Assembly: GCA_021108435.1 (NCBI GenBank)
Contig: JAIOQY010000023.1
Coordinates: 1-37,595, forward strand
Length of the DNA stretch: 37,595 nt
Reading direction: 5' to 3'
Source of the DNA: Candidatus Aegiribacteria sp.
Lineage (GTDB): Bacteria; Fermentibacterota; Fermentibacteria; Fermentibacterales; JCC-6
The notes beneath the pieces are model-generated. The model searched no databases, was not told the DNA's origin, and worked only from the letters and a program-made list of their open reading frames with translations. Of the stretch, positions 7,529-33,364 are shown in pieces. Each line of letters starts with the position of its first letter. The first letter of the stretch is position 1. The translations under genes were made by a program, and so were the position numbers.

Positions 7529-7637
7529 TTTAGACCTGCGAAATCGTTATTTTCCGGCTTACAATTTCCCAGGGCGTTATTTACTTTGTACCTGATTACA
7601 TTAACCTTATTCATGTAAGAAATATGTGGAGGTCTGC

Positions 7638-8828
7638 GTGAAGATACTTGTAGTCAACAGTGGAAGCTCATCCATTAAATTCAAACTTCTGGAGATGGAA
7701 ACGGAATCTCTGCTGGCAGAGGGACTTATAGAGAGGATAGGGCTTGCTGAGGGGCGAATCAAGTACAAGACGAATGATAAGAAGATTGTCATCGAGGAAC
7801 CCGTTCCGGACCACAGAACAGGTCTTGCATTCGTTCTTGATGCCCTTACACATGAGGATTACGGTGCAATCAAATCTCTCGAAGAGATCGGTGCTATCGG
7901 CCACAGAGTAGTGCATGGCGGAGAGCGGTTCACCTCCTCTGTACTGATAAACGATGAGGTTGTCAGGGGTATTGAGGAGTGCAGTATAATGGCGCCTCTT
8001 CATAATCCTCCAAACCTTCAGGGAATCAGAGCTGCCATGGAAACTCTTCCGGATATACCGAATGTTGCTGTATTTGATACTGCATTTCATCAGACTATGC
8101 CTCCTGTCTCGTACATATATCCTCTTCCATACAGTGTATTCGAAGAGAATCGTATGAGAAGGTTCGGTTTTCACGGTCCGAGTCACCAGTATGTTGCCAA
8201 TAGAGCCGCGAAGATGATCGGAAGACCGATTGAAGATCTCTGTATCGTGACCTGTCACCTCGGCAATGGCAGCAGTCTCACCGCTGTGAAGCATGGCAAA
8301 AGCCTGGATACAAGCCTTGGTTACGGAACCGCGTGCGGTGTAATGATGGGAACCAGATCAGGAGATGTTGATTCCGCAGTTTTAATCGATCTTGTTCAGA
8401 ATCACGATGTTTCCATATCTGAACTGAAGGATATGGTTTATAAGAAGAGTGGAGTTCTGGGGATATCAGGTATATCGAGCGACCAGCGTGATGTAGAGGA
8501 CGCAGCAGAGAATGGAAATGAAAGAGCAGAACTTGCACTTGAACTCTTTGCTTCCAGCGTAAGGAAGTACATCGGAGCTTACGCGGTTACTATGGGCGCA
8601 CTGGATGCTATCGTGTTTACTGCTGGAGTAGGGGAGAATGGTCCCCATATGCGTGAGAGAATCTGCATGAATCTTGAGGTTCTCGGTGCTCGAATGGATC
8701 CTGAAAAGAACGATTTCAAGGGTGAGCAGCGTGATATCACCGCGAACGGAAGCAGAGTGAAGATCCTGGTCATTCCCACAAACGAAGAACTCATGATCGC
8801 CAGAGAAACACTCTGGCTTACCGACTGA
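7638..8828 (+). CDS. ackA: Acetate kinase
   Basis: Cytoplasmic enzyme converting acetyl phosphate and ADP to acetate and ATP (or the reverse), the energy-yielding last step of acetate fermentation. The 396-residue length matches the family (about 400). Motifs seen in order: VNSGSSSIKF at the N-terminus, GHRVVHGGERF, FDTAFHQTMP, FGFHGPSHQYV, CHLGNGSSLTA, TRSGDVDSAV, GISGISSDQRDVE, FTAGVGENGPHMRERI and the C-terminal TNEELMIARET with the conserved Glu. The frame is open from a GTG at 7626, but GGAGG at 7628-7632 lies inside that extension and 5 bases before the GTG at 7638, which also gives the canonical MKILVVNSGSSS start. No phosphotransacetylase gene is present in the window. Confidence 0.96.
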   Translation: MKILVVNSGSSSIKFKLLEMETESLLAEGLIERIGLAEGRIKYKTNDKKIVIEEPVPDHRTGLAFVLDALTHEDYGAIKSLEEIGAIGHRVVHGGERFTSSVLINDEVVRGIEECSIMAPLHNPPNLQGIRAAMETLPDIPNVAVFDTAFHQTMPPVSYIYPLPYSVFEENRMRRFGFHGPSHQYVANRAAKMIGRPIEDLCIVTCHLGNGSSLTAVKHGKSLDTSLGYGTACGVMMGTRSGDVDSAVLIDLVQNHDVSISELKDMVYKKSGVLGISGISSDQRDVEDAAENGNERAELALELFASSVRKYIGAYAVTMGALDAIVFTAGVGENGPHMRERICMNLEVLGARMDPEKNDFKGEQRDITANGSRVKILVIPTNEELMIARETLWLTD

Positions 8829-8845
8829 AATTAACGGAGGATACT

Positions 8846-9616
8846 ATGAGAAAAGGAATGCTGCTATACCCGTTCATAATAATTATGATGCTGACCGCTT
8901 CGTGCGGCGAAACTTCAGATGAAACAGCTGCTGAGATGACAGAACCAGTAGAAACGGTAGAAGAAATACCAGCAGAACAGCCTGAAATGATCTATGCAAG
9001 CCACATACTCATTCCTTTCCAGGGCGCGCAGAATGCACCTGCAGACGCCATGGACAGGGAAGAAGCCAGAGCTGAACTTGAGACTATATCTGACAGCATT
9101 TCTGGAGGGCTTATTACTTTTGGGGATGCTGCTGCAAATAATTCCTCCTGTCCGTCTTCACAGCGAGGTGGTTCACTTGGAGCATTCCCAAGGGGAGCCA
9201 TGGTTCCGGAATTCGAAGAAGTGGCATTCGCTCTTGAACCCGGCGAGGTCTCTCAGGTTTTTGAAACACCGTACGGATTCCATATCGTACTCAGGGAGGA
9301 GACAGTTCAGGCAAGCCATATACTGATAGCTTATGAAGGTGCGATAAGAAGCAGTGCCACCAGAACCCAGGAAGAAGCTCTTGAACTGATAGGGAACATC
9401 AGGGACGATCTATCTGAGAATGAAATTACATTCGAAGAAGCTGCCGGAGAGTATTCCGACTGCCCGTCTTCTCAGGTTGGCGGTGATCTCGGCCCCTTCA
9501 GCAGAAACGTAATGGATCCCGCATTCGAGGAAGCTGCATTCGGCATTGAACCCGGAGAAATGTCAGAAATAATCGAAACACCTTTCGGCTATCACCTGAT
9601 CCTAAGAACCGAGTAA
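8846..9616 (+). CDS. Lipoprotein with two parvulin-type peptidyl-prolyl isomerase domains
   Basis: A 256-residue envelope lipoprotein (lipobox LTASC, Cys20) with an acidic Glu/Thr-rich linker and two tandem parvulin (PpiC/rotamase) domains at about residues 50-152 and 155-256. Each repeat shows ASHIL near its start, an SxCPSSQxGG.LG segment, a F..AaFxxxPGE segment and a closing ETPFGYH or ETPYGFH signature. Parvulins catalyse cis/trans isomerisation of prolyl bonds and act as chaperones for exported proteins. Two domains without a long chaperone module is compact. It starts 17 bases after ackA with an SD (GGAGG) six bases before the ATG, so is probably in the same transcript. A single-domain relative lies at 13073-13552. 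Confidence 0.9.
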   Translation: MRKGMLLYPFIIIMMLTASCGETSDETAAEMTEPVETVEEIPAEQPEMIYASHILIPFQGAQNAPADAMDREEARAELETISDSISGGLITFGDAAANNSSCPSSQRGGSLGAFPRGAMVPEFEEVAFALEPGEVSQVFETPYGFHIVLREETVQASHILIAYEGAIRSSATRTQEEALELIGNIRDDLSENEITFEEAAGEYSDCPSSQVGGDLGPFSRNVMDPAFEEAAFGIEPGEMSEIIETPFGYHLILRTE

Positions 9617-11698: not shown

Positions 11699-12901
11699 TC
11701 AGATGTTCTCTCTTACCACCTGTGCAAGACGTCTAACACCTTCCACGATCTGTTCTTCATTCGCAAAGCTGAAATTGAGCCGCATGCTCTGATAATTATC
11801 ATTATCAGGGAAGAAAGCGCTGCCTGGAACGTATGCTATTTGCTCGTCAACAGCCTTCTGGAAGAGATCGTCCGCGTTCTTTCCATCCGGAAGAGTGAGC
11901 CAGAGGAACAATCCACCCTCGGGTTTTGTCCAGCTGACATCAGGCATGTCCGAGAATTCCTTTTCGAGACAATCAAGCATCAGCTTCCGGCGTCTGTCAT
12001 ACACCTTTATCGTATTCTTCAATCCTGTCTCGAGAACACCTGCCTGAAGCATTGCATGGGTAATAGCCTGATTGAAGGGGGGGGTACATAGATCAACAGC
12101 CTGTTTGGCCATAACCATTTTATCTACGACCCAGTGAGGGCCGCAGGCCCATCCAAGACGGAATCCCGGAAGAAGCAGCTTGGAGAACGTGTAAAGAGAG
12201 AGAACCATGTCCGGAGCAATGGACTGGAATGTAGCCTGATGTTCTCCGCTGTATCTGAGCTGCCTGTAGGGTGTATCTTCCACTATCAGGTATTCACCCT
12301 TCTTCGCAATTTCGATGATCCTTCTTCTTCTGTCTTCAGGGATTGTAACACCTGCAGGATTCTGAAAATCCGGAATTATATATATGAACCTTGGCCTGCG
12401 CCCTTCAGCTTCAAGCCTGGCAAGAGTTTCTTCGAGGAGCTCAGGGATCATACCATGCTCATCAAGTTCTACTCCGACCGGAACACCCTGATAACTCTTG
12501 AATGCCTGTAAGCCTCCAAGATACGTTGGAGAACCGGTGATACAGGTATCGCCGGGATTAAGGAAAATTTTGGCAACCAGATCAAGTCCCTGCTGGGAAG
12601 CTGTAGTAACCAGTATGTGATCCGGAGTTGTATTGATGCCTTCCCTTTTCATGATTTCTGTCAGATCCTCGCGAAGTCTTTTGTCACCTTCAGTAGGACC
12701 ATATTGCAATGCAGTGTGAGCTTCCTCTTCAATGACCTTGTCGATAGCGCTTCTGACATGGTCTACAGGGAAGGTCACAGGGGCTGGAAGTCCTCCGGCA
12801 AATGAAATTATGCCTGGTTTGGCAGTCAATTTCAGAAGCTCTCTGATAACCGATCTCTTCATACTCAATGCCCGATCTGAGAAGTATTTCTGTTTCTCCA
12901 T
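11699..12901 (-). CDS. PLP-dependent aminotransferase (2-aminoadipate/aromatic type)
   Basis: A 400-residue cytoplasmic fold-type I aminotransferase of the class I/II, LysN/kynurenine-aminotransferase-like group. Seen: IISFAGGLPAP at the N-terminus, LQYGPTEGDKRLRE, the cofactor-binding TTASQQGLDL, IPDFQNPAGVT, VEDTPYRQLRY and the Schiff-base lysine in SLYTFSKLLLPGFRLGW (Lys241), then the C-terminal EGGLFLWLTLP and SMRLNFSF with the substrate-carboxylate Arg. Such enzymes transfer amino groups between 2-aminoadipate, aromatic or branched amino acids and 2-oxoglutarate; specificity cannot be read from the sequence. There is no MocR-type DNA-binding N-terminus. The ATG has AAGGAG seven bases upstream. 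It is divergent from the downstream parvulin lipoprotein gene. Confidence 0.9.
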   Translation of the reverse strand: MEKQKYFSDRALSMKRSVIRELLKLTAKPGIISFAGGLPAPVTFPVDHVRSAIDKVIEEEAHTALQYGPTEGDKRLREDLTEIMKREGINTTPDHILVTTASQQGLDLVAKIFLNPGDTCITGSPTYLGGLQAFKSYQGVPVGVELDEHGMIPELLEETLARLEAEGRRPRFIYIIPDFQNPAGVTIPEDRRRRIIEIAKKGEYLIVEDTPYRQLRYSGEHQATFQSIAPDMVLSLYTFSKLLLPGFRLGWACGPHWVVDKMVMAKQAVDLCTPPFNQAITHAMLQAGVLETGLKNTIKVYDRRRKLMLDCLEKEFSDMPDVSWTKPEGGLFLWLTLPDGKNADDLFQKAVDEQIAYVPGSAFFPDNDNYQSMRLNFSFANEEQIVEGVRRLAQVVRENI

Positions 12902-17501: not shown

Positions 17502-17577
17502 GCGGGAATAGCTCAGTTGGTAGAGCCCTACCTTGCCAAGGTAGCTGTCGCGGGTTCAAGTCCCGTTTCCCGCTCCA
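17502..17577 (+). tRNA. tRNA-Gly (anticodon GCC), CCA encoded
   Basis: A complete cloverleaf of 76 bases. The acceptor stem GCGGGAA pairs with TTCCCGC (17567-17573), followed by discriminator T and encoded CCA (17575-17577). The D arm contains AGCTCAGTTGG. The anticodon stem CTACC/GGTAG encloses loop TTGCCAA with anticodon GCC at 17535-17537. The T arm is CGGG-TTCAAGT-CCCG. It decodes GGC/GGU glycine codons. Confidence 0.97.
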
Positions 17578-23025: not shown

Positions 23026-24444
23026 ATGAGCACATATATCGCTGTAATTGTCGCGTATTTTGCTTTTGTCATACTGGTATCTCTGTTTACCAGACGATTT
23101 GCCAGCCGCTCTGCATCTGATTTCCTTATTGCCGGCAGGAATCTTGGGGTAGTTGTGTGTGCTGTTGTAGTGGCCGCGGAGTGGCTGGGCGGCATGAGCA
23201 CAATCGGGGTCAGTGAAAAAGCATTTACCACAGGCACTTTGCAGCCTGTACTGTACAATATGGCGACTGCGATTGGCATGGTTATCATCGGTTTTACAGT
23301 TGCTTCCCGATACAGAAAGGAAAATGTTCATACGGTCAGCGAGATGCTTGAAAATCTCTTTGGCCCGAAAGTGCGGACTGTCTCCGCCATCTCATTCCTT
23401 ATTGCCTATATAACCCTGGCTTATGTACAACTTCAAACCTGCTCAAGTGTGATTGCTCCTCTTTTCGGCATCAGCTGGCTTACCTCAATACTTATTTCAT
23501 CCGTTATCATAACATTGTATACGTATTTAGGTGGCATGCACGCCCTTGCGGTAACCGGGATCATTCATGTAGTGACCATGTTCGCAGGGATCGGCATTGC
23601 GTTGATAATCGGACTTGAAAAGGTTGGCGGATTCGCGACCCTGCAGAGCAGTCTAGTCGCATCAGGTTCCCCCGCTAATCTTTACAATCCTTTCAGCGCG
23701 AATATCAGTTATGCTTTCAGCCTGCTGCTTGGAGGTATACTTGGGGGAATGGCCGGACAGGCCAGCATTCAGCCTATCTTTGCCGCGCGGAATCCCCTTA
23801 CAGCCAGGCGGGCTGCCATTGCATCCAGCCTTATTATCGCTCCATTTGGTATTATGGTCGGGATCCTTGGGCTGATCGCCAGAACAGGTCTCTTTTTCGA
23901 TACCACTTCATGCGATCCTAAAATGGCTTTACCTGAGCTGCTTACATCATCTGTGTTCATTCCGCCAATCCTTGGGGGGCTGGCGCTTGCGGGTATTCTT
24001 GCAGCGATTCTTTCCACGGTCGGTCCTGTGAATTTCGCTGTAGTAACAATTGCAACAAAAGACATCTATCACGGATTGATCAATAAAACCGCGGATGACA
24101 GGAAAATACTTGTCACTGCCCGTAAACTGGTACTTCTGGTCAATATTATTACCATACCTCTGGCAGTTTATCTCAGAGGATCAATCCTTGACGCGGCTTA
24201 TGTGTCTTACGCCATCAGAGCTATCGGAGCGATAGTCATAGTTCTGGGCATTTACGCACGGGGCTGGATTACGCCACTGGGCGCCAAACTTGCATTCGTC
24301 GGCGGTACTCTTGCTGTATTCATCTGCATCATTGCCGGTAAATTGGGTTTTTTCAGTATTGACAAAACATATGGAGCTGTGGGGTCTGCTCTTCTATTCA
24401 TAGTTGTCGGCCATCTTTGGACTAAATTCAGGGAGAAAAAATGA
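23026..24444 (+). CDS. Sodium:solute symporter (SSS family)
   Basis: A 472-residue transporter with about 13 hydrophobic helices. N-terminal ASDFLIAGRNLGVVV and EWLGGMSTIGVSEKAF are typical of the SSS fold, as is YTYLGGMHALAVTGIIH in the middle. Family members take up organic acids, amino acids or sugars with Na+; the substrate is not readable from sequence. The gene heads the five-gene operon that contains a CoA-transferase, a 2-oxoacid:ferredoxin oxidoreductase and an OFA carrier, so a carboxylate substrate is likely (inference). Its stop overlaps the ATG of the next gene by 4 bases (ATGA). Confidence 0.92.
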   Translation: MSTYIAVIVAYFAFVILVSLFTRRFASRSASDFLIAGRNLGVVVCAVVVAAEWLGGMSTIGVSEKAFTTGTLQPVLYNMATAIGMVIIGFTVASRYRKENVHTVSEMLENLFGPKVRTVSAISFLIAYITLAYVQLQTCSSVIAPLFGISWLTSILISSVIITLYTYLGGMHALAVTGIIHVVTMFAGIGIALIIGLEKVGGFATLQSSLVASGSPANLYNPFSANISYAFSLLLGGILGGMAGQASIQPIFAARNPLTARRAAIASSLIIAPFGIMVGILGLIARTGLFFDTTSCDPKMALPELLTSSVFIPPILGGLALAGILAAILSTVGPVNFAVVTIATKDIYHGLINKTADDRKILVTARKLVLLVNIITIPLAVYLRGSILDAAYVSYAIRAIGAIVIVLGIYARGWITPLGAKLAFVGGTLAVFICIIAGKLGFFSIDKTYGAVGSALLFIVVGHLWTKFREKK

Positions 24445-25661
24445 CACTGGATAACATCTTTTCCGGATTGAAAGTTATTGAGCTTGCCAATGTTCTAGCC
24501 GGCCCAAGTGTCGGCGCTTTCTTCTCAGAGCTGGGCGCAACAGTTATCAAAATTGAGAACCGCTTAACAGGTGGTGATGTAACCCGCAGATGGAAACTTC
24601 CCGATGAATCCGCAGACAGCGATATCTCCTCCTATTTCTCCAGCGTTAACTGGGGCAAATTCTCAATCGGGGTGGATCTCCAAACAGAGAAGGGTCTGAA
24701 AATTGTTCACAGTCTGATAGCAAAGAGTGATATCGTTCTGGCCAGTTACAAACCAGGGGACGCGGAGAAACTCAGGGTTGACCATGATACACTCAATAGA
24801 CTTAACCCCGGATTGATCTACGCTTACATCACCGGGTACGGCAGTCGCAATAATCGGTCTGGTTACGATGCGATTATCCAGGCGGAAAGCGGTTTCACAT
24901 ACATGAACGGCGAATCCGACAGCGGACCGGTCAAGATGCCTGTAGCGTTAATGGATGTTCTGGCTGCCCATCAGGTTAAGGAAGGAATTCTTCTCGCGCT
25001 TCTCCATCGTGAGAGAACCGGGGAAGGACAGTATATAGAAGTTTCACTCATTCAATCCGGAGCGGCTTCCCTTGTAAACCAGGCCTCAAACTGGCTGGTG
25101 GGGAAAACGATTCCTCAGAGAATGGGGTCTGATCACCCGAATATAGCTCCCTACGGAACCATATTCAGTACCAGGGACGGCAGGGATATAGTTCTTGCTG
25201 TTGGAACGGACAAACAGTTTGCCGAGTTATGCAGGCTTCTTGGAATACCGGAAATTGCTTCAGATATAAGATTTGTTTCCAACGCGGAGAGGGTAAAGCA
25301 TCGGGAGGAATTGAAGAAGATTCTGCAGAAATCCATTATGAAGCTCCTCAGGGATGAATTCCTTGATCAACTGAACGAGAAGAATATCCCTGCTGGCAGT
25401 GTCTGCAATATGGAGGAGGTTTTCGAGAAACCTGAAGTAAAGGAACTTCTCATAGAAGCTACCAGCGTACGCGGTTTATCTCTAAAAGGCCTCCGAACTG
25501 CGGTTTTTTTATCTGAAGGGGGATCGGCAGGAAAGGAAATACTCCCTCCGCCTCATTATGGAGAGCATACGGAAATGATTCTGAAGAAATTCTTGAAATT
25601 AGAGGATGAATCGATTCAGGAATTGATTAAAGACGGTGTGATAGACGGAATGGGAGAATAG
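24441..25661 (+). CDS. Family III CoA-transferase (CaiB/BaiF)
   Basis: A 406-residue cytoplasmic enzyme that moves CoA between carboxylic acids through an aspartyl-thioester intermediate. Seen: FSGLKVIELANVLAGPSVGAFFSELGATVIKIEN, NWGKFSIGVDLQTEKG, YAYITGYGSRNNRSGYDAIIQAESG with the catalytic Asp143, and HHR-type ALLHRERTGEGQYIEVSL, then the smaller C-terminal part (DKQFAELCRLLGIPE...LNEKNIPAGSVCNMEEV). This is the CaiB/BaiF fold used by formyl-CoA:oxalate transferase and relatives, but specificity cannot be assigned here. It is translationally coupled to the symporter (4-base overlap) and lies 4 bases before the OFOR alpha gene. Confidence 0.93.
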   Translation: MTLDNIFSGLKVIELANVLAGPSVGAFFSELGATVIKIENRLTGGDVTRRWKLPDESADSDISSYFSSVNWGKFSIGVDLQTEKGLKIVHSLIAKSDIVLASYKPGDAEKLRVDHDTLNRLNPGLIYAYITGYGSRNNRSGYDAIIQAESGFTYMNGESDSGPVKMPVALMDVLAAHQVKEGILLALLHRERTGEGQYIEVSLIQSGAASLVNQASNWLVGKTIPQRMGSDHPNIAPYGTIFSTRDGRDIVLAVGTDKQFAELCRLLGIPEIASDIRFVSNAERVKHREELKKILQKSIMKLLRDEFLDQLNEKNIPAGSVCNMEEVFEKPEVKELLIEATSVRGLSLKGLRTAVFLSEGGSAGKEILPPPHYGEHTEMILKKFLKLEDESIQELIKDGVIDGMGE

Positions 25662-25665
25662 AAAA

Positions 25666-26769
25666 ATGATCCTTGCAAATGGCTCAATGCTTATCATTGA
25701 GGCACTGGCAAAAGCCGGAGGGGATATTTTCATCGGATATCCTATAACTCCCGCGAATTCATTGTATCAATACGGTATTCAGCGCTTTCCCATGTCACTG
25801 GCAGCACCGGATGAGATTACGACTCTCCAGTGGATGGCAGGATTTTCTGCGACAGGTAAACTTCCCGTCACCGCTACATCCTTTCCCGGTTTAGCGTTAA
25901 TGATCGAGTCCATCAATATGGCGTACATGATGGAATTGCCGATGGTAATCGCTCTGGTCCAGCGGTTCGGCCCTTCAACCGGCACTGCCACATGCGGTGC
26001 GCAGGGCGATCTTCTGCTGATTAACGGTCTCATTTCCGGAGGCTATCCGGTTCCGACTTTCTGCATTTCCAGCATGGATGATTGTTGGGATATATCAGCC
26101 TCTGCAGCCTCTGCAGCAGTTGAACTGCGTACACCTGTTTTCCTCCTCACTTCAAAGGAAATGGTCATGCCGCTGCGCGGTTATGACATTTCTTCTCTCT
26201 CTGAAATAGACCCTGTTTCTTATAGTTATCACGATGATGACAGGAAGTATGTGCCATACGAACCCGGAAACAATCTTGTTCCCGGCTTTCTGCCTGTTGG
26301 CAATGAAAAGCATCAGACAAGATTGACTGCCTCCACGCATGATCGTAATGGAATATTGCAGCACACCACAAAGGAAGCCCTGGCAAATACAACACGTCTT
26401 CAGGGGAAAATCCTTAAGAATCTGCCTGAATTCACCTTCCACGAACTCGATGAGGAAGATGCTGATACTGTAATTGTATCCTTCGGCATCACTTCTCCTG
26501 CTGCCCGGAGAGCGGTGAGGACGCTCAGGAAGAATGGAGTCAGTGTATCTCACTTGATTGCTAAAACACTGTTTCCAGTACCTTCGCTTTACATCGATAC
26601 GATCAGGAATTACAGGCGTGTTGTGGTCGCGGAGGAAAATCAAAATGGGCAATTCCGGCAGATACTGTTCGGGGTTTCCGGCAGGGAAGGAGTTACCGGC
26701 GTGAATACCATCGGCAGAATGATAACTCCTGAGGAAATTATCGAGGAGGTGACCGGAGATGGGAGATAA
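25666..26769 (+). CDS. 2-oxoacid:ferredoxin oxidoreductase, alpha subunit
   Basis: A 367-residue KorA-type alpha subunit. Together with the TPP-binding beta part it oxidises a 2-oxoacid plus CoA to acyl-CoA and CO2, reducing ferredoxin. Seen: the pyrimidine-binding domain with DIFIGYPITPANSLYQY, the GFSATGKLPVTATSFPGLALM block, ELPMVIALVQRFGPSTGTATCGAQGDLL, then a second domain with ADTVIVSFGITSPAARRAVRTLR. The typical TSGPG is TSFPG here, so the substrate pocket may differ. There is no N-terminal gamma domain, unlike KorA of Sulfolobus type. SD GGGAG lies nine bases before the ATG. It overlaps the next gene by 11 bases. Confidence 0.92.
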   Translation: MILANGSMLIIEALAKAGGDIFIGYPITPANSLYQYGIQRFPMSLAAPDEITTLQWMAGFSATGKLPVTATSFPGLALMIESINMAYMMELPMVIALVQRFGPSTGTATCGAQGDLLLINGLISGGYPVPTFCISSMDDCWDISASAASAAVELRTPVFLLTSKEMVMPLRGYDISSLSEIDPVSYSYHDDDRKYVPYEPGNNLVPGFLPVGNEKHQTRLTASTHDRNGILQHTTKEALANTTRLQGKILKNLPEFTFHELDEEDADTVIVSFGITSPAARRAVRTLRKNGVSVSHLIAKTLFPVPSLYIDTIRNYRRVVVAEENQNGQFRQILFGVSGREGVTGVNTIGRMITPEEIIEEVTGDGR

Positions 26770-28033
26770 ATACCTTTCAACATCAGAATTACCTTTCTGC
26801 AAAGGTTGCGGGCATCATCTCGTTGCGCGGAATACGGAAAAGGCTCTGGAGGCGATTGGCTTGAATCCTCTGGATGTTATTCTGGTTACGGATATCGGAT
26901 GTCACGGAATAATTGACAGGAAATTCCATACCCATACTGTTCATGGCCTGCATGGCAGATCGGTGGCGCTTGCAGCGGGTATTACTCTCGGGCTCAACAA
27001 TCCATCAAAAAAGGTGATCGTTTATATAGGAGATGGCGGCGCGACAATCGGACTTCAGCATCTTATCGAAGCCGCGCATAGAAACTTCGATATGACCGTT
27101 ATCATCCACAACAATATGCTTTACGGCATGACAGGAGGGCAGGCGAGCGGTTTGACTCCATGCGGATTCAAAACAACGACCTCTCCTGAAGGCAAACCTT
27201 ACTCCGGTTATGACCTTTGCAGAAAAGCCAACAATGTGGGCGCATCGTACGCCAGAAGAATCATCGGAACGGGAGATTATTCAGGCCATCTGGCTGAGGC
27301 ATTCGAAACAGAAGGATTTTCCCTTCTGGAGGTGATGGAGATCTGCCCGAGTTATGGAGTCAAATTCAATCCGGACAGGAAACTCACTGAAATAATCGAA
27401 CAGGCCGACTTGAAAGTAAAACTGTACAGTAATCAGATCAGGAAAAGATATCAGGTGCATCTCCGTGATAATCCGATATCCCTGTTTAAAGAAAAGAATG
27501 AAATAGAGATCGAATTCCATTCGGAACTGAAGGATACCTTTTCATTAATACTGAGCGGCTCCGCCGGAGGAGGTGTCCAGCTAGCGACTGAGCTTTTTGC
27601 TCAGGCAGCAATCGCATCCGGCCTTGATGTTTCAAAAAAGGGAAATTATCCTGTAACAGTGGGTACCGGGTTTTCCAGTTCCGATATAATTGTGTCTCCC
27701 GATCCTATCCTTTTCACAGGGGTCAAGGATCCGGATGTAGTGATAATTGTCTCGAAAGACGGCCTGGAACACTGTAGAGCTGTCATAGAGCGCATGAAAA
27801 ATGGATTGCTCATTATTGATGAGAATATCGATACACCAATAACCGGAGCTGAAGTCCTCAAGCATGATTTCCATGGAATAGCGGGAGCCAGGAGCGCAGC
27901 TCTATATGCGTTGTTTTTCTATCTTCATCGCAATCCGGTTATACCTGTTGATGCATTAGTCAGCGCTCTTGGAAAAAGTGGAATTTCAGATAAGGTTGAT
28001 CTGGACATGCTGTTAAACTTTAAGATTGAGTGA
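26759..28033 (+). CDS. 2-oxoacid:ferredoxin oxidoreductase, fused beta-gamma subunit
   Basis: A 424-residue fusion. Residues 1-~235 are the beta, TPP-binding subunit: cluster ligands Cys14, Cys17, Cys48 and Cys206, the TPP motif GDGG at 91-94 with the N118-N119 segment HNNMLYGMTGGQ. Residues ~250-424 form a gamma domain: LSGSAGGGVQLATELFAQAA, TGFSSSDIIVS, LLIIDENI, and the IAGARSAAL helix. The usual arrangement is gamma fused to alpha, to delta or as a separate subunit; gamma at the C-terminus of beta is uncommon. No delta [2x4Fe-4S] subunit is present in the operon, so electrons probably go from the single proximal cluster to an external ferredoxin. SD GAGGAGG is 9 bases before the ATG inside the alpha gene. 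Confidence 0.92.
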   Translation: MGDKYLSTSELPFCKGCGHHLVARNTEKALEAIGLNPLDVILVTDIGCHGIIDRKFHTHTVHGLHGRSVALAAGITLGLNNPSKKVIVYIGDGGATIGLQHLIEAAHRNFDMTVIIHNNMLYGMTGGQASGLTPCGFKTTTSPEGKPYSGYDLCRKANNVGASYARRIIGTGDYSGHLAEAFETEGFSLLEVMEICPSYGVKFNPDRKLTEIIEQADLKVKLYSNQIRKRYQVHLRDNPISLFKEKNEIEIEFHSELKDTFSLILSGSAGGGVQLATELFAQAAIASGLDVSKKGNYPVTVGTGFSSSDIIVSPDPILFTGVKDPDVVIIVSKDGLEHCRAVIERMKNGLLIIDENIDTPITGAEVLKHDFHGIAGARSAALYALFFYLHRNPVIPVDALVSALGKSGISDKVDLDMLLNFKIE

Positions 28034-28090
28034 ATAAGTAGTATTCGGAATCTCACGGCATCATCATGGATGCTCACGATAGGACGTTTT

Positions 28091-29275
28091 ATGAAAAAGG
28101 GTATTCAGGTAATAGTAAGTGCTGTAGTCATGCAGATATGCCTTGGCGGCGTGTATGCATGGAGCATTTACACTCCCGTATTAAGAAATGTTTACGGTAT
28201 GACCGGTGGACAGACGGGAAGCATCTTCGGAATCACGATAGCTGTATTTGCTGTTGCAATGATCTTTGCAGGACGATTCCAGGAAAAGTACGGACCTCGT
28301 GTTGTTTCTTTTATCGGAGCTCTCTTTTTCGCTGCTGGATACATTCTATCCTCGCAATCAAACGGATCATTCCTGATTCTTGCTGCCGGTATAGGCGTTC
28401 TGTCCGGTATTGGCATTGGCTGCGGTTATGTCTGCGCTCTTGCGACTGCCATCAAATGGTACCCGAAGAGGAGAGGTTTGATAACCGGTATAGCGGTTAT
28501 GGGATTTGGCGGTGGCGCGATTCTTCTGTCCAGGATCGCTAACGGGCTGATGAGTAACGGGACGGATGTGATGCAAGTATTTCTGGGAGTAGGATTGGTT
28601 GTGGGGGCGATACTTATCGTTTGCGCGCTGTTTCTCAAACTCCCGCCGGATATGATAAAAGGGAAGGACGACAGTGGATCAGTTATCGGGAAGTCGCTCA
28701 GGCAGCCGCGCTTCATATCCCTGGTAATAGGGATGTTCGCCGGTACGTTCGGAGGGTTGCTTGTTATAGGGAATCTGGCACCGATAGGGATTTCATGGAA
28801 TTTCACTTCTGCGCAGGCTGCGTCTGCCATCGGTCTGTTTTCAATCGGCAACATGGTGGGGCGTTTCGTCTGGGGAGTTGTTTACGACCGAATAAAGAAT
28901 ATTGCTATACCACTCTCTCTGGGGCTTCTGGGAATCGCGATGCTGGCGTTGCTGCTTCCGCTCCCGTATGCAGGTTTTCTGACGGCTTCGCTCTTCATCG
29001 GATTCAGCTTCGGCGCCTGTTTTGTTCTATATGCCGCACATGTGGCAACACTTTATGGCAGCTGGGCGGTGGGAAAAATTTATCCTCTGGTTTTCCTCGC
29101 GTACGGAGTTGCGGGTATTACCGGACCCTCCCTGGGTGGGTTTCTTTATGATGTATTCAGTTCCTATTCATATGCGACAATACTTGCGGTTTCAATTGCA
29201 TGGATCAGTGCCGGAGTAATAATTTATCTCCATTCGCGCGAAAAAAGTGAGAACAATCTTCCCGCTGATGAATGA
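28091..29275 (+). CDS. OFA-family MFS transporter (oxalate/formate antiporter type)
   Basis: A 394-residue, 12-helix major-facilitator carrier. N-terminal VVMQICLGGVYAWSIYTPVL, the RFQEKYGPR loop between helices 2 and 3, GIGIGCGYVCALATAIKWYPKRRGLITGIAVMGFGGGA, and GNMVGRFVWGVVYDRI are hallmarks of the oxalate/formate antiporter (OFA) family, whose known members exchange or take up oxalate, formate, pyruvate, lactate and similar acids. An ATG at 28070 is in frame, but AGGA six bases before the ATG at 28091 and the MKKGIQV start favour 28091. It closes the five-gene operon 58 bases after the beta-gamma gene. Possibly the product exporter or a second substrate importer. Confidence 0.9.
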   Translation: MKKGIQVIVSAVVMQICLGGVYAWSIYTPVLRNVYGMTGGQTGSIFGITIAVFAVAMIFAGRFQEKYGPRVVSFIGALFFAAGYILSSQSNGSFLILAAGIGVLSGIGIGCGYVCALATAIKWYPKRRGLITGIAVMGFGGGAILLSRIANGLMSNGTDVMQVFLGVGLVVGAILIVCALFLKLPPDMIKGKDDSGSVIGKSLRQPRFISLVIGMFAGTFGGLLVIGNLAPIGISWNFTSAQAASAIGLFSIGNMVGRFVWGVVYDRIKNIAIPLSLGLLGIAMLALLLPLPYAGFLTASLFIGFSFGACFVLYAAHVATLYGSWAVGKIYPLVFLAYGVAGITGPSLGGFLYDVFSSYSYATILAVSIAWISAGVIIYLHSREKSENNLPADE

Positions 29276-30062: not shown

Positions 30063-31124
30063 CTATCTTGTTATGGCAATGCTTCCGGAGTAACTGCAGC
30101 AGCCATCATCCGATTCGATTATGAATAAATAGACTCCATTCGGGATGGAACTCACATTCCACTGGTGAACCGCCTCTGAAATACAGCCGAAATCATGGAT
30201 CAATCTTCCGGTGATATCGAAGATACCGATATTGTCGCCGTGATTCAGGTTGTTGAAAATTACAACGTTTCCATTTCTGCAGACAAAAGGATCAGTATCA
30301 GTGGCAGGTGGATTATCATGTTCGGATGGTATGCCTGTTTCCGGCAGGCCATCCCATATTTCCATATCATCGAGCCAGGTTCTTCCGTTTCCGATTGGAG
30401 TACCGCCACTGAGATTTGAAGGCCATCCCACAGTCCTGAGAGCCACACCGTTGTTCTGGTTTATTTCGTCTCTGAAGTGTACATTGGATGAATCAGCAAG
30501 GTAGATACCATCAACCCTGACAAAGAAGCTTCCGGTTGGACCGGTTGTCCCCAGATCAATATTAACTTCCATCGTGTGCCACTCCATATCATCCAGGTTT
30601 CCACCAGAGAATGTGAGCCAGCGGTTGTATGTGATCACATATCCAGGGTTGCTTCGTATGGTTATGTGAAAGTTGTCGTCACCGTTTTTAGCCAGTACGA
30701 ACACGAAGTCGCCACCCCACTCACCGTAACCGATATAGATATTCTTATTCTGTATAGTGCCGGTGTAGTTGATATCGGTCTGCCATCTCTGATTCCACTT
30801 GAAGTAGTATGTAGATGTCTGTACGTTGTCGAAGAGGAATCCACTTGTGTTCCCGTGAGTTACAGGAAAGCCTGCATTCGCGTGTGGATTGCCTGTTATC
30901 CACGGGTCGTATGTCATACAATAATTTCCGCTTACGGGATCTTCATCCGACCTGGTCAGTTCCGAGATAAGCTCTTCCCAGTAGTAGGAAGTACCCAGGC
31001 TTCGCTCAAGGAACCACTCGTCAAAGGCAGTATCTTCGCAGTCCTCGAATAGCAGGATTTCAGAACCGGGGGAAGCTGCTGTGATTATCAGCAGAAAGAC
31101 GATTACTCGTGATACTCCAGACAT
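30063..31124 (-). CDS. Secreted jelly-roll-like protein with C-terminal sorting tail
   Basis: A 353-residue exported protein. The signal peptide begins MSGVSRVIVFLLIITAAS. The mature part opens with EILLFEDCEDTAFDEWFLE and includes YYFKWNQRWQ, IYIGYGEWGGDFVFVL and WHTMEVNIDLG, which resembles a concanavalin-like/jelly-roll carbohydrate-binding or lyase fold. After the linker EHDNPPATDTDPF comes a tail of about 75 residues with IGIFDITGRLIHDF and IPNGVYLFIIES, a type-A sorting domain like that of type IX secretion cargo. The frame extends to 31325, but AAAGGA eight bases before the ATG at 31124 plus the signal peptide identify this start. Its glycan target and role are unknown. Confidence 0.75.
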   Translation of the reverse strand: MSGVSRVIVFLLIITAASPGSEILLFEDCEDTAFDEWFLERSLGTSYYWEELISELTRSDEDPVSGNYCMTYDPWITGNPHANAGFPVTHGNTSGFLFDNVQTSTYYFKWNQRWQTDINYTGTIQNKNIYIGYGEWGGDFVFVLAKNGDDNFHITIRSNPGYVITYNRWLTFSGGNLDDMEWHTMEVNIDLGTTGPTGSFFVRVDGIYLADSSNVHFRDEINQNNGVALRTVGWPSNLSGGTPIGNGRTWLDDMEIWDGLPETGIPSEHDNPPATDTDPFVCRNGNVVIFNNLNHGDNIGIFDITGRLIHDFGCISEAVHQWNVSSIPNGVYLFIIESDDGCCSYSGSIAITR

Positions 31125-31430
31125 GATGGTTGTCCTTTCATCAAAAGCTGATATCCAGCGGATTATCAGGAAATAATCTCTCTTTACTATCATTTTCTGA
31201 AAATCCCTGCTAGGGAAGCTTAACACATACAGTATACTATGTTCATCAATGAGAGGAAATGTATATTGTTTATCAGCGCATGAGCCGGAGAGATTACACC
31301 TGATTCTCCTCCGCTTGTCATCCATTCATTATTCATTGCCTGAAATGATATTACCGGGAGAAGCCTCTGTTCTTACTGGTAATGCAACAATCAAAATTAT
31401 CAGGGTCAATATGATTTAATCATTTAAGCA
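31125..31430. other. 306-base gap between two secreted-protein genes
   Basis: This region continues the open frame of the upstream extension but has no signs of coding use. It holds a second copy of the 18-base element CCTGAAATGATATTACCG (31339-31356), which on the minus strand reads as a -10 TAATAT (31353-31348), here without a good -35. A start there would give a ~220-base leader. No terminator or RNA gene is recognised. Confidence 0.4.
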
Positions 31431-33254
31431 TCAAATCAGAATCAGCTTGATCATTTCCACAAGTCCGAGACCGGTCACTGTGAATCTTACAAGGTAAATA
31501 CCGGCAGGAACTGTTATTCCATTACTGTCTCTTCGCTCCCAGACTACTGAATGAGAGTTCTCACCTGTAGAGTTAGAACACTCAAATGATTGTACCAGCC
31601 TGCCTGTGATATTGAATATCTCGATCCTTGTATCTGAAGGTTGCTGAAGCGAGTACCGGAGTTCAACAGCTCCCACGGAAGGATTTGGAGCAGCTTCTAG
31701 AAACCCATCGGGCTGCACGGAATTCTGTCCGGATACTCCCTGCGGATCCGGGTTTATCCAGATGCAGGTTATTGAGGCTTTGGGAAATGTATAGCTGAAA
31801 CTTCCGGAACTGCCGGTAATCTCCCCCTCGTACGATATTCCGGAAGTTCCATTCCAGGGGGCATTAATGGGCTGGTCATTTACGATCTGCCATACTTCAG
31901 CAGTTCCGTCAGACGTGTATCCTGAAAGCTCTATTGATGCTGTGTATGACGAATCGAGATTCTTATTAACGGCAATGAGTGAAAGTGTCCAGTCATCATA
32001 TAAAGAGGCGTAAACTTCAAGACCGTAACCTCCGCAGACCTGATTGCATGTAGCTTCCACCACTGTGCTGCCAAACCGCTCCCGATAAAGTTTCATTGCC
32101 CAGGCTGAGCTCCGCATTGAAAGAGTATCTGTGCGAATAGCACCGAACTGGGGGAACTTATCTTCATATGGATCACCCTCGGCGATAGAGTAAGAAGCCG
32201 CTACAGGTACGCCAGTCCTGGCCATGTGGCCAATACAATCAGCAATGAAAAGCCCATCAAGATAGTTCCACCAGACTGGATCATCCACAATAGCTATGAT
32301 GTTGTATTCCATGATCCATACAGGAATATCATAGCTGCCGCTGTGCTTTTCTACAGTGTCCACCACTATTGGATACCAGCTCTCAAGTGGAGGTTTGGAC
32401 TCTGAGCCTGCGGTTGGTGAGGCAAGCCAGTAGCGGTACAGTGTACTGTCTGAAGAAAATCCTCCTGTGGGATAGTAATGGATATCCATCCAGTTCATCT
32501 TTTCTTTGTTCAGCTCAAATACAGGATCTATCCAGGAGAGATCCCCGGCGAGAGAGAGACCTCCTATCTCAAGTGGAATCGGAGACCTCGGGCGCATGGA
32601 ATCGATGTACACACTGGCCAGCTCAGCGAAATCATCCGCTGTGGCGTAAACAGAATCGTTTACCGCCCAGTCCTCAAAGGGAATCTCGAAATGTCTATAA
32701 AAGGTCATGTCTCCCCATGGTGGAAACGGAAAAGTCTGTCCGGCAATATCGGGCTCATTCCCTATACACCAGTAAGTAACATTGTACGGTTCAGGATGTC
32801 CTCTCGATGCTCTAACCATGCCCATGGGAGTTGTGATATCACCGTTGCAGTACTCTACCATCCTGGCAGCCTTTCCCGGATCGTTGATCTGGTAATTCAC
32901 TGTCAATATGGGTGTTATATTTATCTGTTCACAGAACTGTAAAAGGTTGTCAAGACTGTTTTCCAGAGGGACAGGGATAAGAAGCTCACCAACATCGATG
33001 TAATGAATCCCGTTGTAGTTATCGGCCTCCCAGTCATAGTACTCAACAGCAATACCACCCATTCGAAGGAGCGGAACTCCTGTCGCTTCCACCAGGCTGT
33101 CAAGTCCAGGATAGCTCAGATCCTGAACTATTTCGTCCCCGGAACAGACCAGCATTGAGTCGAACGAACCCACTACCTGATCCGCTTCAACCAGTATCTC
33201 TGCGGGAATTGAATTAATTATTGCCAGAGCAATCGTGAATTCCAGTCCGATCAC
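31431..33254 (-). CDS. Secreted clan GH-A-like glycoside hydrolase with sorting tail
   Basis: A 607-residue exported enzyme. After a hydrophobic leader ending near IPAEI, residues ~25-430 look like a (beta/alpha)8 glycosidase: PLLRMGG, ITPILTVNYQ, YWCIGNEPDI with the proposed acid/base Glu167, MNWMDIHYYPTG, and VWIMEYNI with the proposed nucleophile Glu316. The order recalls GH51, GH44 or GH79-type members that act on plant polysaccharides or glucuronides; the family and substrate are unproven. Residues ~430-520 form a beta-sandwich. The last ~85 residues (APNPSVGAVELRYSL..., RIEIFNITGRLVQSF, GIYLVRFTV) are a FlgD/type-IX sorting tail. The GTG at 33254 is nine bases after GGAGG; a TTG at 33260 overlaps the upstream ORF stop and is the alternative. 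Confidence 0.8.
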   Translation of the reverse strand: MIGLEFTIALAIINSIPAEILVEADQVVGSFDSMLVCSGDEIVQDLSYPGLDSLVEATGVPLLRMGGIAVEYYDWEADNYNGIHYIDVGELLIPVPLENSLDNLLQFCEQINITPILTVNYQINDPGKAARMVEYCNGDITTPMGMVRASRGHPEPYNVTYWCIGNEPDIAGQTFPFPPWGDMTFYRHFEIPFEDWAVNDSVYATADDFAELASVYIDSMRPRSPIPLEIGGLSLAGDLSWIDPVFELNKEKMNWMDIHYYPTGGFSSDSTLYRYWLASPTAGSESKPPLESWYPIVVDTVEKHSGSYDIPVWIMEYNIIAIVDDPVWWNYLDGLFIADCIGHMARTGVPVAASYSIAEGDPYEDKFPQFGAIRTDTLSMRSSAWAMKLYRERFGSTVVEATCNQVCGGYGLEVYASLYDDWTLSLIAVNKNLDSSYTASIELSGYTSDGTAEVWQIVNDQPINAPWNGTSGISYEGEITGSSGSFSYTFPKASITCIWINPDPQGVSGQNSVQPDGFLEAAPNPSVGAVELRYSLQQPSDTRIEIFNITGRLVQSFECSNSTGENSHSVVWERRDSNGITVPAGIYLVRFTVTGLGLVEMIKLILI

Positions 33255-33256
33255 GC

Positions 33257-33364
33257 TCAATTACCTCCAGGAACCTGTGTTTCAGGATTAGACATTGTAA
33301 TGGTTACGATAGAAATCAACATTGCGGCTGTGGCAGGAAGAACAGCTCTCAGTGAAAACTTCAT
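33257..33364 (-). CDS. 35-residue leader-peptide-like ORF coupled to the glycosidase
   Basis: Starts ATG at 33364 with AAGGA ten bases upstream. The product, MKFSLRAVLPATAAMLISI then VTITMSNPETQVPGGN, looks like a signal peptide with a charged N-terminus, hydrophobic core and polar end. Its last codons (GGA GGT) form the SD of the glycosidase, and its stop TGA overlaps the alternative TTG start of that gene (TTGA). It could be a leader that controls translation, a small membrane peptide, or the real signal peptide separated by a frameshift. Expression is unproven. Confidence 0.4.
   Translation of the reverse strand: MKFSLRAVLPATAAMLISIVTITMSNPETQVPGGN

Follow-up and report, generated by a model that had tools for sequence, protein, structure and literature searches.

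Which acid would be handled by a compact carboxylate operon of Candidatus Aegiribacteria sp.? The operon occupies positions 23026–29275 of contig JAIOQY010000023.1, whose entire 37,595 nucleotides we analyzed and refer to as the window. The host, an uncultured anaerobe, is represented by a metagenome-assembled genome (MAG) of Fermentibacterota (2.92 Mb, 96% complete), whose relatives are named Fermentibacteraceae/Hyd24-12. Five open reading frames (ORFs) encode, in order, a sodium:solute symporter (SSS), a CaiB-type CoA-transferase, the alpha and the fused beta-gamma chains of a 2-oxoacid:ferredoxin oxidoreductase (OFOR), and an MFS carrier of the oxalate:formate antiporter (OFA) type. A sequence-only reading had proposed that a 2-oxoacid is oxidized via ferredoxin to an acyl-CoA, followed by CoA transfer, and this part we judge to be right. 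As to the substrate, we consider the chances about even that the first four genes serve Na+-coupled uptake and ferredoxin-linked oxidative decarboxylation of a C6 2-oxo-dicarboxylate, most likely 2-oxoadipate.

The locus was compared with those of about 80 other genomes by tblastn and ORF clustering. A scan with the alpha chain, using one genome per species, yielded 80 named loci with 53–85% identity; outside close kin, the identity was 53–65% throughout. The order SSS-CaiB-alpha-betagamma recurs at about 25–30 loci of Bacteroidales, Fermentibacterota and Planctomycetota (a Brocadiia MAG), and a Bipolaricaulota locus has CaiB-alpha-betagamma without the SSS. Elsewhere the partner of the same OFOR is swapped, the CoA-transferase giving way to Ptb and butyrate kinase (Ptb-Buk) or to glutaryl-CoA dehydrogenase (GCDH). 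Both of the first two arrangements occur in Fermentibacterota beside the same gene, which we take to be purC-like: SSS-CaiB-alpha-betagamma in G007 and G019, and Buk-Ptb-SSS-alpha-betagamma in G033 and G034. A Delongbacteria locus also holds an ADP-forming acyl-CoA synthetase-like gene. Because all the partners act on an acyl-CoA, we take each to mark a different onward route for what the OFOR produces. On a tree of 79 alpha sequences the three architectures are interleaved and none is a single clade; the changes counted (transferase 6, Ptb-Buk 3, GCDH 3, with unlabelled loci treated as their own group) are far below those with shuffled labels. A search for the gene order in other genomes, suggested as a check on the sequence-only reading, thus found it conserved across phyla, which is at odds with unrelated families that lack conserved co-occurrence. 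The fifth gene had been counted as part of the module; it has no match at any other module locus and is absent downstream of the four-gene unit in the congener G007, so the conserved core comprises the first four genes. The MFS gene is a local addition that may export a product.

The neighbors of this OFOR in other genomes point to glutaryl-CoA. A genuine GCDH adjoins it in 20 loci, usually at less than 0.3 kb. The GCDH of L046 scored 443 bits against the best GCDH structure and about 210–260 against other acyl-CoA dehydrogenases, and the Arg-Ser motif (RS..SVQ), which we assume from Arg94 of the human enzyme to bind the distal carboxylate, is kept in 20 of 20. One locus, L017, combines crotonase, 3-hydroxyacyl-CoA dehydrogenase, thiolase, acyl-CoA dehydrogenase, GCDH, SSS, CaiB, alpha and beta-gamma in a single row. 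In L022 of Ignavibacteria, GCDH and the OFOR have as neighbors a gene resembling homoisocitrate dehydrogenase and a homoaconitase (TIGR00139, 867 bits; cut-off 530), and L020 has aconitase/homoaconitase-family genes with a homoisocitrate-dehydrogenase-like gene; homoaconitase and homoisocitrate dehydrogenase make 2-oxoadipate. Since the GCDH neighbors, the L017 row, the homoaconitase loci and the CoA-transferase model described below converge as independent lines, we favor conversion of 2-oxoadipate to glutaryl-CoA as the reaction.

Sources of 2-oxoadipate are frequent in genomes with this OFOR. Matches to PF16653 were split by score and length into a LYS9 type (about 450 aa, >200 bits) and a shorter group (about 390 aa, near 150 bits), presumably carboxynorspermidine-dehydrogenase-like. 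LYS9-type saccharopine dehydrogenase is encoded in 35 of the 50 OFOR genomes. The cultivated Perlabentimonas gracilis, which has the OFOR at locus L088, carries LYS9. Homoaconitase (TIGR00139) occurs in three, all among the 15 without LYS9 (P=0.02); in two of these LysX exceeds its cut-off. With LYS9 or homoaconitase, 38 of the 50 have one source or the other. Within the order around L036 (Bacteroidales background, 148 genomes), the LYS9 type was found in 79 genomes, the OFOR in 10, and LYS9 in all 10 of the latter. In Ignavibacteria, a fungal LYS4-type homoaconitase stands beside the OFOR and GCDH or in the same genome (L022, L046 and L067); together the three enzymes could lead from 2-oxoglutarate and acetyl-CoA through 2-oxoadipate to crotonyl-CoA.

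The OFOR has the hallmarks of its superfamily. The YPITP motif, R100 and T105 of alpha, the last two on the 2-oxoacid side, are invariant or nearly so in 78–79 relatives; the [4Fe-4S] cysteines of beta (C14, C17, C48 and C196) are near-invariant, and the thiamine pyrophosphate (TPP) motif and Pfam matches agree. The enzyme consists of two chains with one [4Fe-4S] set, beta and gamma sharing the 424-aa protein (a fusion overlooked in the sequence-only reading), and the operon contains no delta or ferredoxin gene. The beta chains of the 2-oxoisovalerate-type enzymes (VOR) at L003 (2532–3524) and L095 (845–2287) also run into a gamma-like domain, so the fusion is not unique to the module. H49, I51, D53, H59 and M124 of beta form a family signature. 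I51 occupies the position of Lys49b in the Sulfolobus enzyme StOFOR and is Ile in 77 of 78 relatives. The pocket residues, the same across architectures, include none of the Lys/Arg tied to 2-oxoglutarate use, and the columns that separate GCDH loci from transferase loci number zero in beta and one in alpha (column 44). Because almost no column is class-specific, a single substrate for all architectures seems probable. Identification as the 2-oxoglutarate enzyme KorAB was rejected (NF007206, 165 bits against a cut-off of 579; NF007207, 136 against 364; no basic residue at the Lys49b position). Besides the module, the host has genes for a KorDABC-like set (L002) and for a VOR of the VorB type (L003); its Kor has Arg at the specificity position and is only 29% identical to the module in alpha.

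The CoA-transferase belongs to family III, with PF02515 above cut-off and a catalytic Asp, D172, which is invariant in 13 members and aligns with the Asp of 10uh and 4ed9. Its best NCBIfam model was succinate--glutarate CoA-transferase (NF052585), at 310 bits against an equivalog cut-off of 750; the next model scored 193. All 13 CaiB relatives scanned matched NF052585.

The SSS is a secure member of its family (PF00474 gathering threshold, 22.8 bits), and about 36 loci have a copy 60–92% identical to it immediately before the same OFOR, mostly loci with CaiB or Ptb-Buk. In the 21 OFOR genomes whose locus has no SSS, none was found elsewhere (E<1e-60). Of the 12 genomes without a recognized 2-oxoadipate source, 10 have an SSS at the locus; of the 38 that have such a source, 19 do (P=0.04), a distribution that mildly favors substrate import. 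The MFS carrier came closest to the L-lactate model NF049980 (SfMCT; 265 bits, cut-off 320), and its identification as an oxalate:formate antiporter was rejected, with both TIGR00890 (188.6/374.9) and TIGR04259 (120.7/335) under cut-off.

The route that we propose, including substrate, direction, CoA acceptor and transported solutes, is predicted from gene families and neighborhoods. The SSS would import 2-oxoadipate, or 2-aminoadipate that a transaminase then converts. A KAT-II/LysN-like aminotransferase in the window (PH0207, 381 bits; Thermus LysN 2-aminoadipate transaminase, 285; human KAT/AADAT, 162) is a possible candidate for this step, such enzymes being broad. The OFOR would convert 2-oxoadipate into glutaryl-CoA, CO2 and reduced ferredoxin. 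The CaiB-type enzyme might pass CoA to acetate or succinate, and the resulting thioester could be cashed in as ATP, for which the window holds an acetate kinase (7626–8828). Glutarate would leave the cell, perhaps via the adjacent MFS carrier. In other lineages the same acyl-CoA would be unloaded by Ptb and butyrate kinase or oxidized further by GCDH.

Coordinates of the features are collected in Table 1. All five ORFs were confirmed on the strand and with the families that had been read from the letters. Their spacing (4-bp overlap, 4-bp gap, 11-bp overlap, then 36 bp, or 57 bp to the second ATG of the MFS gene) matches the earlier figures apart from the last, given as 58 bp; because it is so tight, it supports a single transcript, as had been suggested. 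In a scan for promoters and terminators, promoter-like sites were fewer than in shuffled sequences. The window also carries a tRNA-Gly (gcc) at 17502–17577, near the contig middle, and, on the minus strand, two large secreted-looking proteins (30063–31325 and 31431–33260) whose C-termini read like sorting domains of the type IX secretion system.

Table 1. Features of the operon and of related segments (window coordinates)
Feature	Position	Strand	Details
SSS/SSF sodium:solute symporter	23026..24444	+	472 aa; PF00474 132 bits
CaiB/family III CoA-transferase, nearest characterized kind SUGCT	24441..25661	+	406 aa; PF02515 322 bits
OFOR alpha subunit	25666..26769	+	367 aa; PF01855 (POR_N) 104 bits; YPITP 25-29, R100, T105
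OFOR beta fused to gamma	26759..28033	+	424 aa; TPP_enzyme_C 45-192, 96 bits; POR (gamma) 269-358, 38 bits
OFA-type/monocarboxylate MFS carrier	28070..29275	+	401 aa, or 394 aa from ATG 28091; MFS_1 131 bits
KAT-II/LysN-like aminotransferase	11699..12901	-	PDB matches PH0207, LysN, AADAT
Segment deleted in sister G009 (L101)	25721..27873		blastn/tblastn of window on L101, junction read

A sister species, G009, which is about 94–95% identical to the window at this locus (MFS 95%), has lost the OFOR only. The deletion, read at 8878–9140 of L101 (G009:C92), keeps the reading frame and, at a short shared stretch, links the beginning of alpha with the final part of beta-gamma, leaving a fusion of about 60 residues. 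The SSS, CaiB and OFA genes of G009 contain no stops and have dN/dS values of 0.05, 0.12 and 0.17, respectively. This fits either a recent loss of the OFOR or a role of the SSS and CaiB that does not need it. In the 13 Fermentibacterota in which no OFOR was detected, the SSS was found in only one other genome.

Several observations weigh against 2-oxoadipate oxidation. No enzyme of the module reaches a curated equivalog cut-off, and the direction of the reaction cannot be read from the genes. The 96% complete host genome has no saccharopine dehydrogenase and no LysX above cut-off, nor a GCDH, for which it offers no in-genome positive control (the same query matched many other genomes); neither a source nor an oxidative sink of 2-oxoadipate is therefore visible in the host. 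Lysine synthesis through 2-aminoadipate and LysX was rejected for Fermentibacterota, where LysX matches are far under cut-off. The acyl-CoA dehydrogenases at L025, L044, L048 and L053 are only 31–34% identical to GCDH and were separated from it; they lie in a row of 3-hydroxyacyl-CoA dehydrogenase, HyuA/HyuB-like (hydantoinase/acetone-carboxylase) genes, the OFOR and thiolases. The hypergeometric P=0.0014 for OFOR–LYS9 co-occurrence around L036 ignores shared ancestry. In StOFOR1, the K49I mutation abolished activity on 2-oxoglutarate and kept that on pyruvate (PMC5020499), so Ile at this position possibly goes with a substrate that is not a dicarboxylate.

These points leave room for other explanations. 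The transferase and Ptb-Buk lineages may handle another 2-oxoacid (branched-chain, aryl or sulfur-containing), with 2-oxoadipate confined to the GCDH lineage: short or branched acids are the usual substrates of butyrate kinases, GCDH is mostly missing from the Ptb-Buk and transferase genomes, and the host lacks the lysine routes. We consider this unlikely, because the architectures share their pocket and signature columns and a uniform identity, on the tree the transferase lineages are mixed in among those with GCDH, and the host already has a VOR. Nothing that we found points to the branched or aromatic acids of the sequence-only reading, which keep a place within this alternative. It is also conceivable, with a somewhat lower probability, that the pathway runs in reverse, the SSS taking up an acid such as glutarate, which CaiB or Ptb-Buk would activate, and the OFOR carboxylating the thioester reductively to a 2-oxoacid for amino-acid synthesis. 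OFORs are reversible in principle, the distribution of the SSS fits an acid that needs activation, and the intact SSS, CaiB and OFA genes of G009 keep such acid import alive. However, Fermentibacterota and most WOR-3 members have neither LYS9 nor LysX to use 2-oxoadipate, and L017 couples the module to a complete-looking row for crotonyl-CoA degradation.

SUGCT uses succinyl-CoA as donor, and the CaiB protein is closest to the SUGCT family, so the OFOR might instead oxidize 2-oxoglutarate and provide succinyl-CoA for the activation of glutarate. We find this improbable given the separate Kor set of the host with its Arg, the OFOR at GCDH-type loci without any CaiB, and the Ptb-Buk loci without a glutarate enzyme. 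An oxalate/glyoxylate pathway, raised by the sequence-only reading as one possibility, is barely credible. Oxalate enzymes do occur in the CaiB and OFA families, and oxalate models were among the matches. Yet they fell far under cut-off (TIGR03253 for CaiB, 166.6/504 bits; NF045792 for the oxidoreductase, 39.9/590) and below the SUGCT and lactate-type models, the OFA gene lies outside the conserved unit, and the neighbors elsewhere point to glutaryl-CoA and 2-oxoadipate. Alpha has YPITP in place of YPIRP, the motif of oxalate oxidoreductase (PMC5020499).

Returning to 2-oxoadipate, we tentatively propose, at somewhat less than even chances, a widespread family of 2-oxoadipate:ferredoxin oxidoreductases with swappable partners (CoA-transferase, Ptb-Buk or GCDH), forming an anaerobic branch of lysine/2-aminoadipate breakdown that leads to glutarate or crotonyl-CoA, yields ATP and reduced ferredoxin and, in Fermentibacterota, is supplied from outside the cell by a dedicated Na+ symporter. 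We found no description of such an enzyme in the open literature (subscription journals lay outside the search). If correct, the proposal would fill a gap in anaerobic lysine catabolism, with 2-oxoadipate oxidized without the lipoamide-type 2-oxoadipate dehydrogenase, and would add a new substrate class to the OFOR superfamily. The gains would be ATP and reduced ferredoxin, for H2 or formate, and glutarate is a predicted fermentation product; the carriers would be sediment and digester members of the Bacteroidales, Ignavibacteria, WOR-3, Delongbacteria and Fermentibacterota. The signature residues would sharpen many generic '2-oxoacid:acceptor oxidoreductase' annotations.

Among known systems, the module OFOR resembles KorAB/OorABC and StOFOR in YPITP, the carboxylate-binding Arg and Thr, TPP, a single-[4Fe-4S] beta chain and a gamma domain. 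It differs from them in that gamma is fused to the C-terminus of beta and delta is lacking, and from StOFOR in having Ile, Met and Gly at Lys49b, Leu123b and Lys125b. The CaiB protein shares with SUGCT (PDB 9br6) the family III fold, the catalytic Asp and the best-scoring curated model, whereas it stays well below the equivalog cut-off and shares its operon with an OFOR. Oxalate oxidoreductase and the OFA antiporter are of the same superfamilies as their counterparts here, but differ in motif and in conservation with the module, respectively. With the 2-oxoisovalerate (valine) OFOR coupled to Ptb-Buk, the Ptb-Buk loci have in common an OFOR placed before an acyl-phosphate and a kinase for ATP; that OFOR is of the other, VorB-type subfamily, and at the sister loci GCDH or CaiB is employed. 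In mitochondria, the DHTKD1/OADH enzyme of lysine degradation would catalyze the same conversion of 2-oxoadipate to glutaryl-CoA, but as an unrelated lipoamide/NAD-dependent complex, whereas the module enzyme would be linked to ferredoxin.

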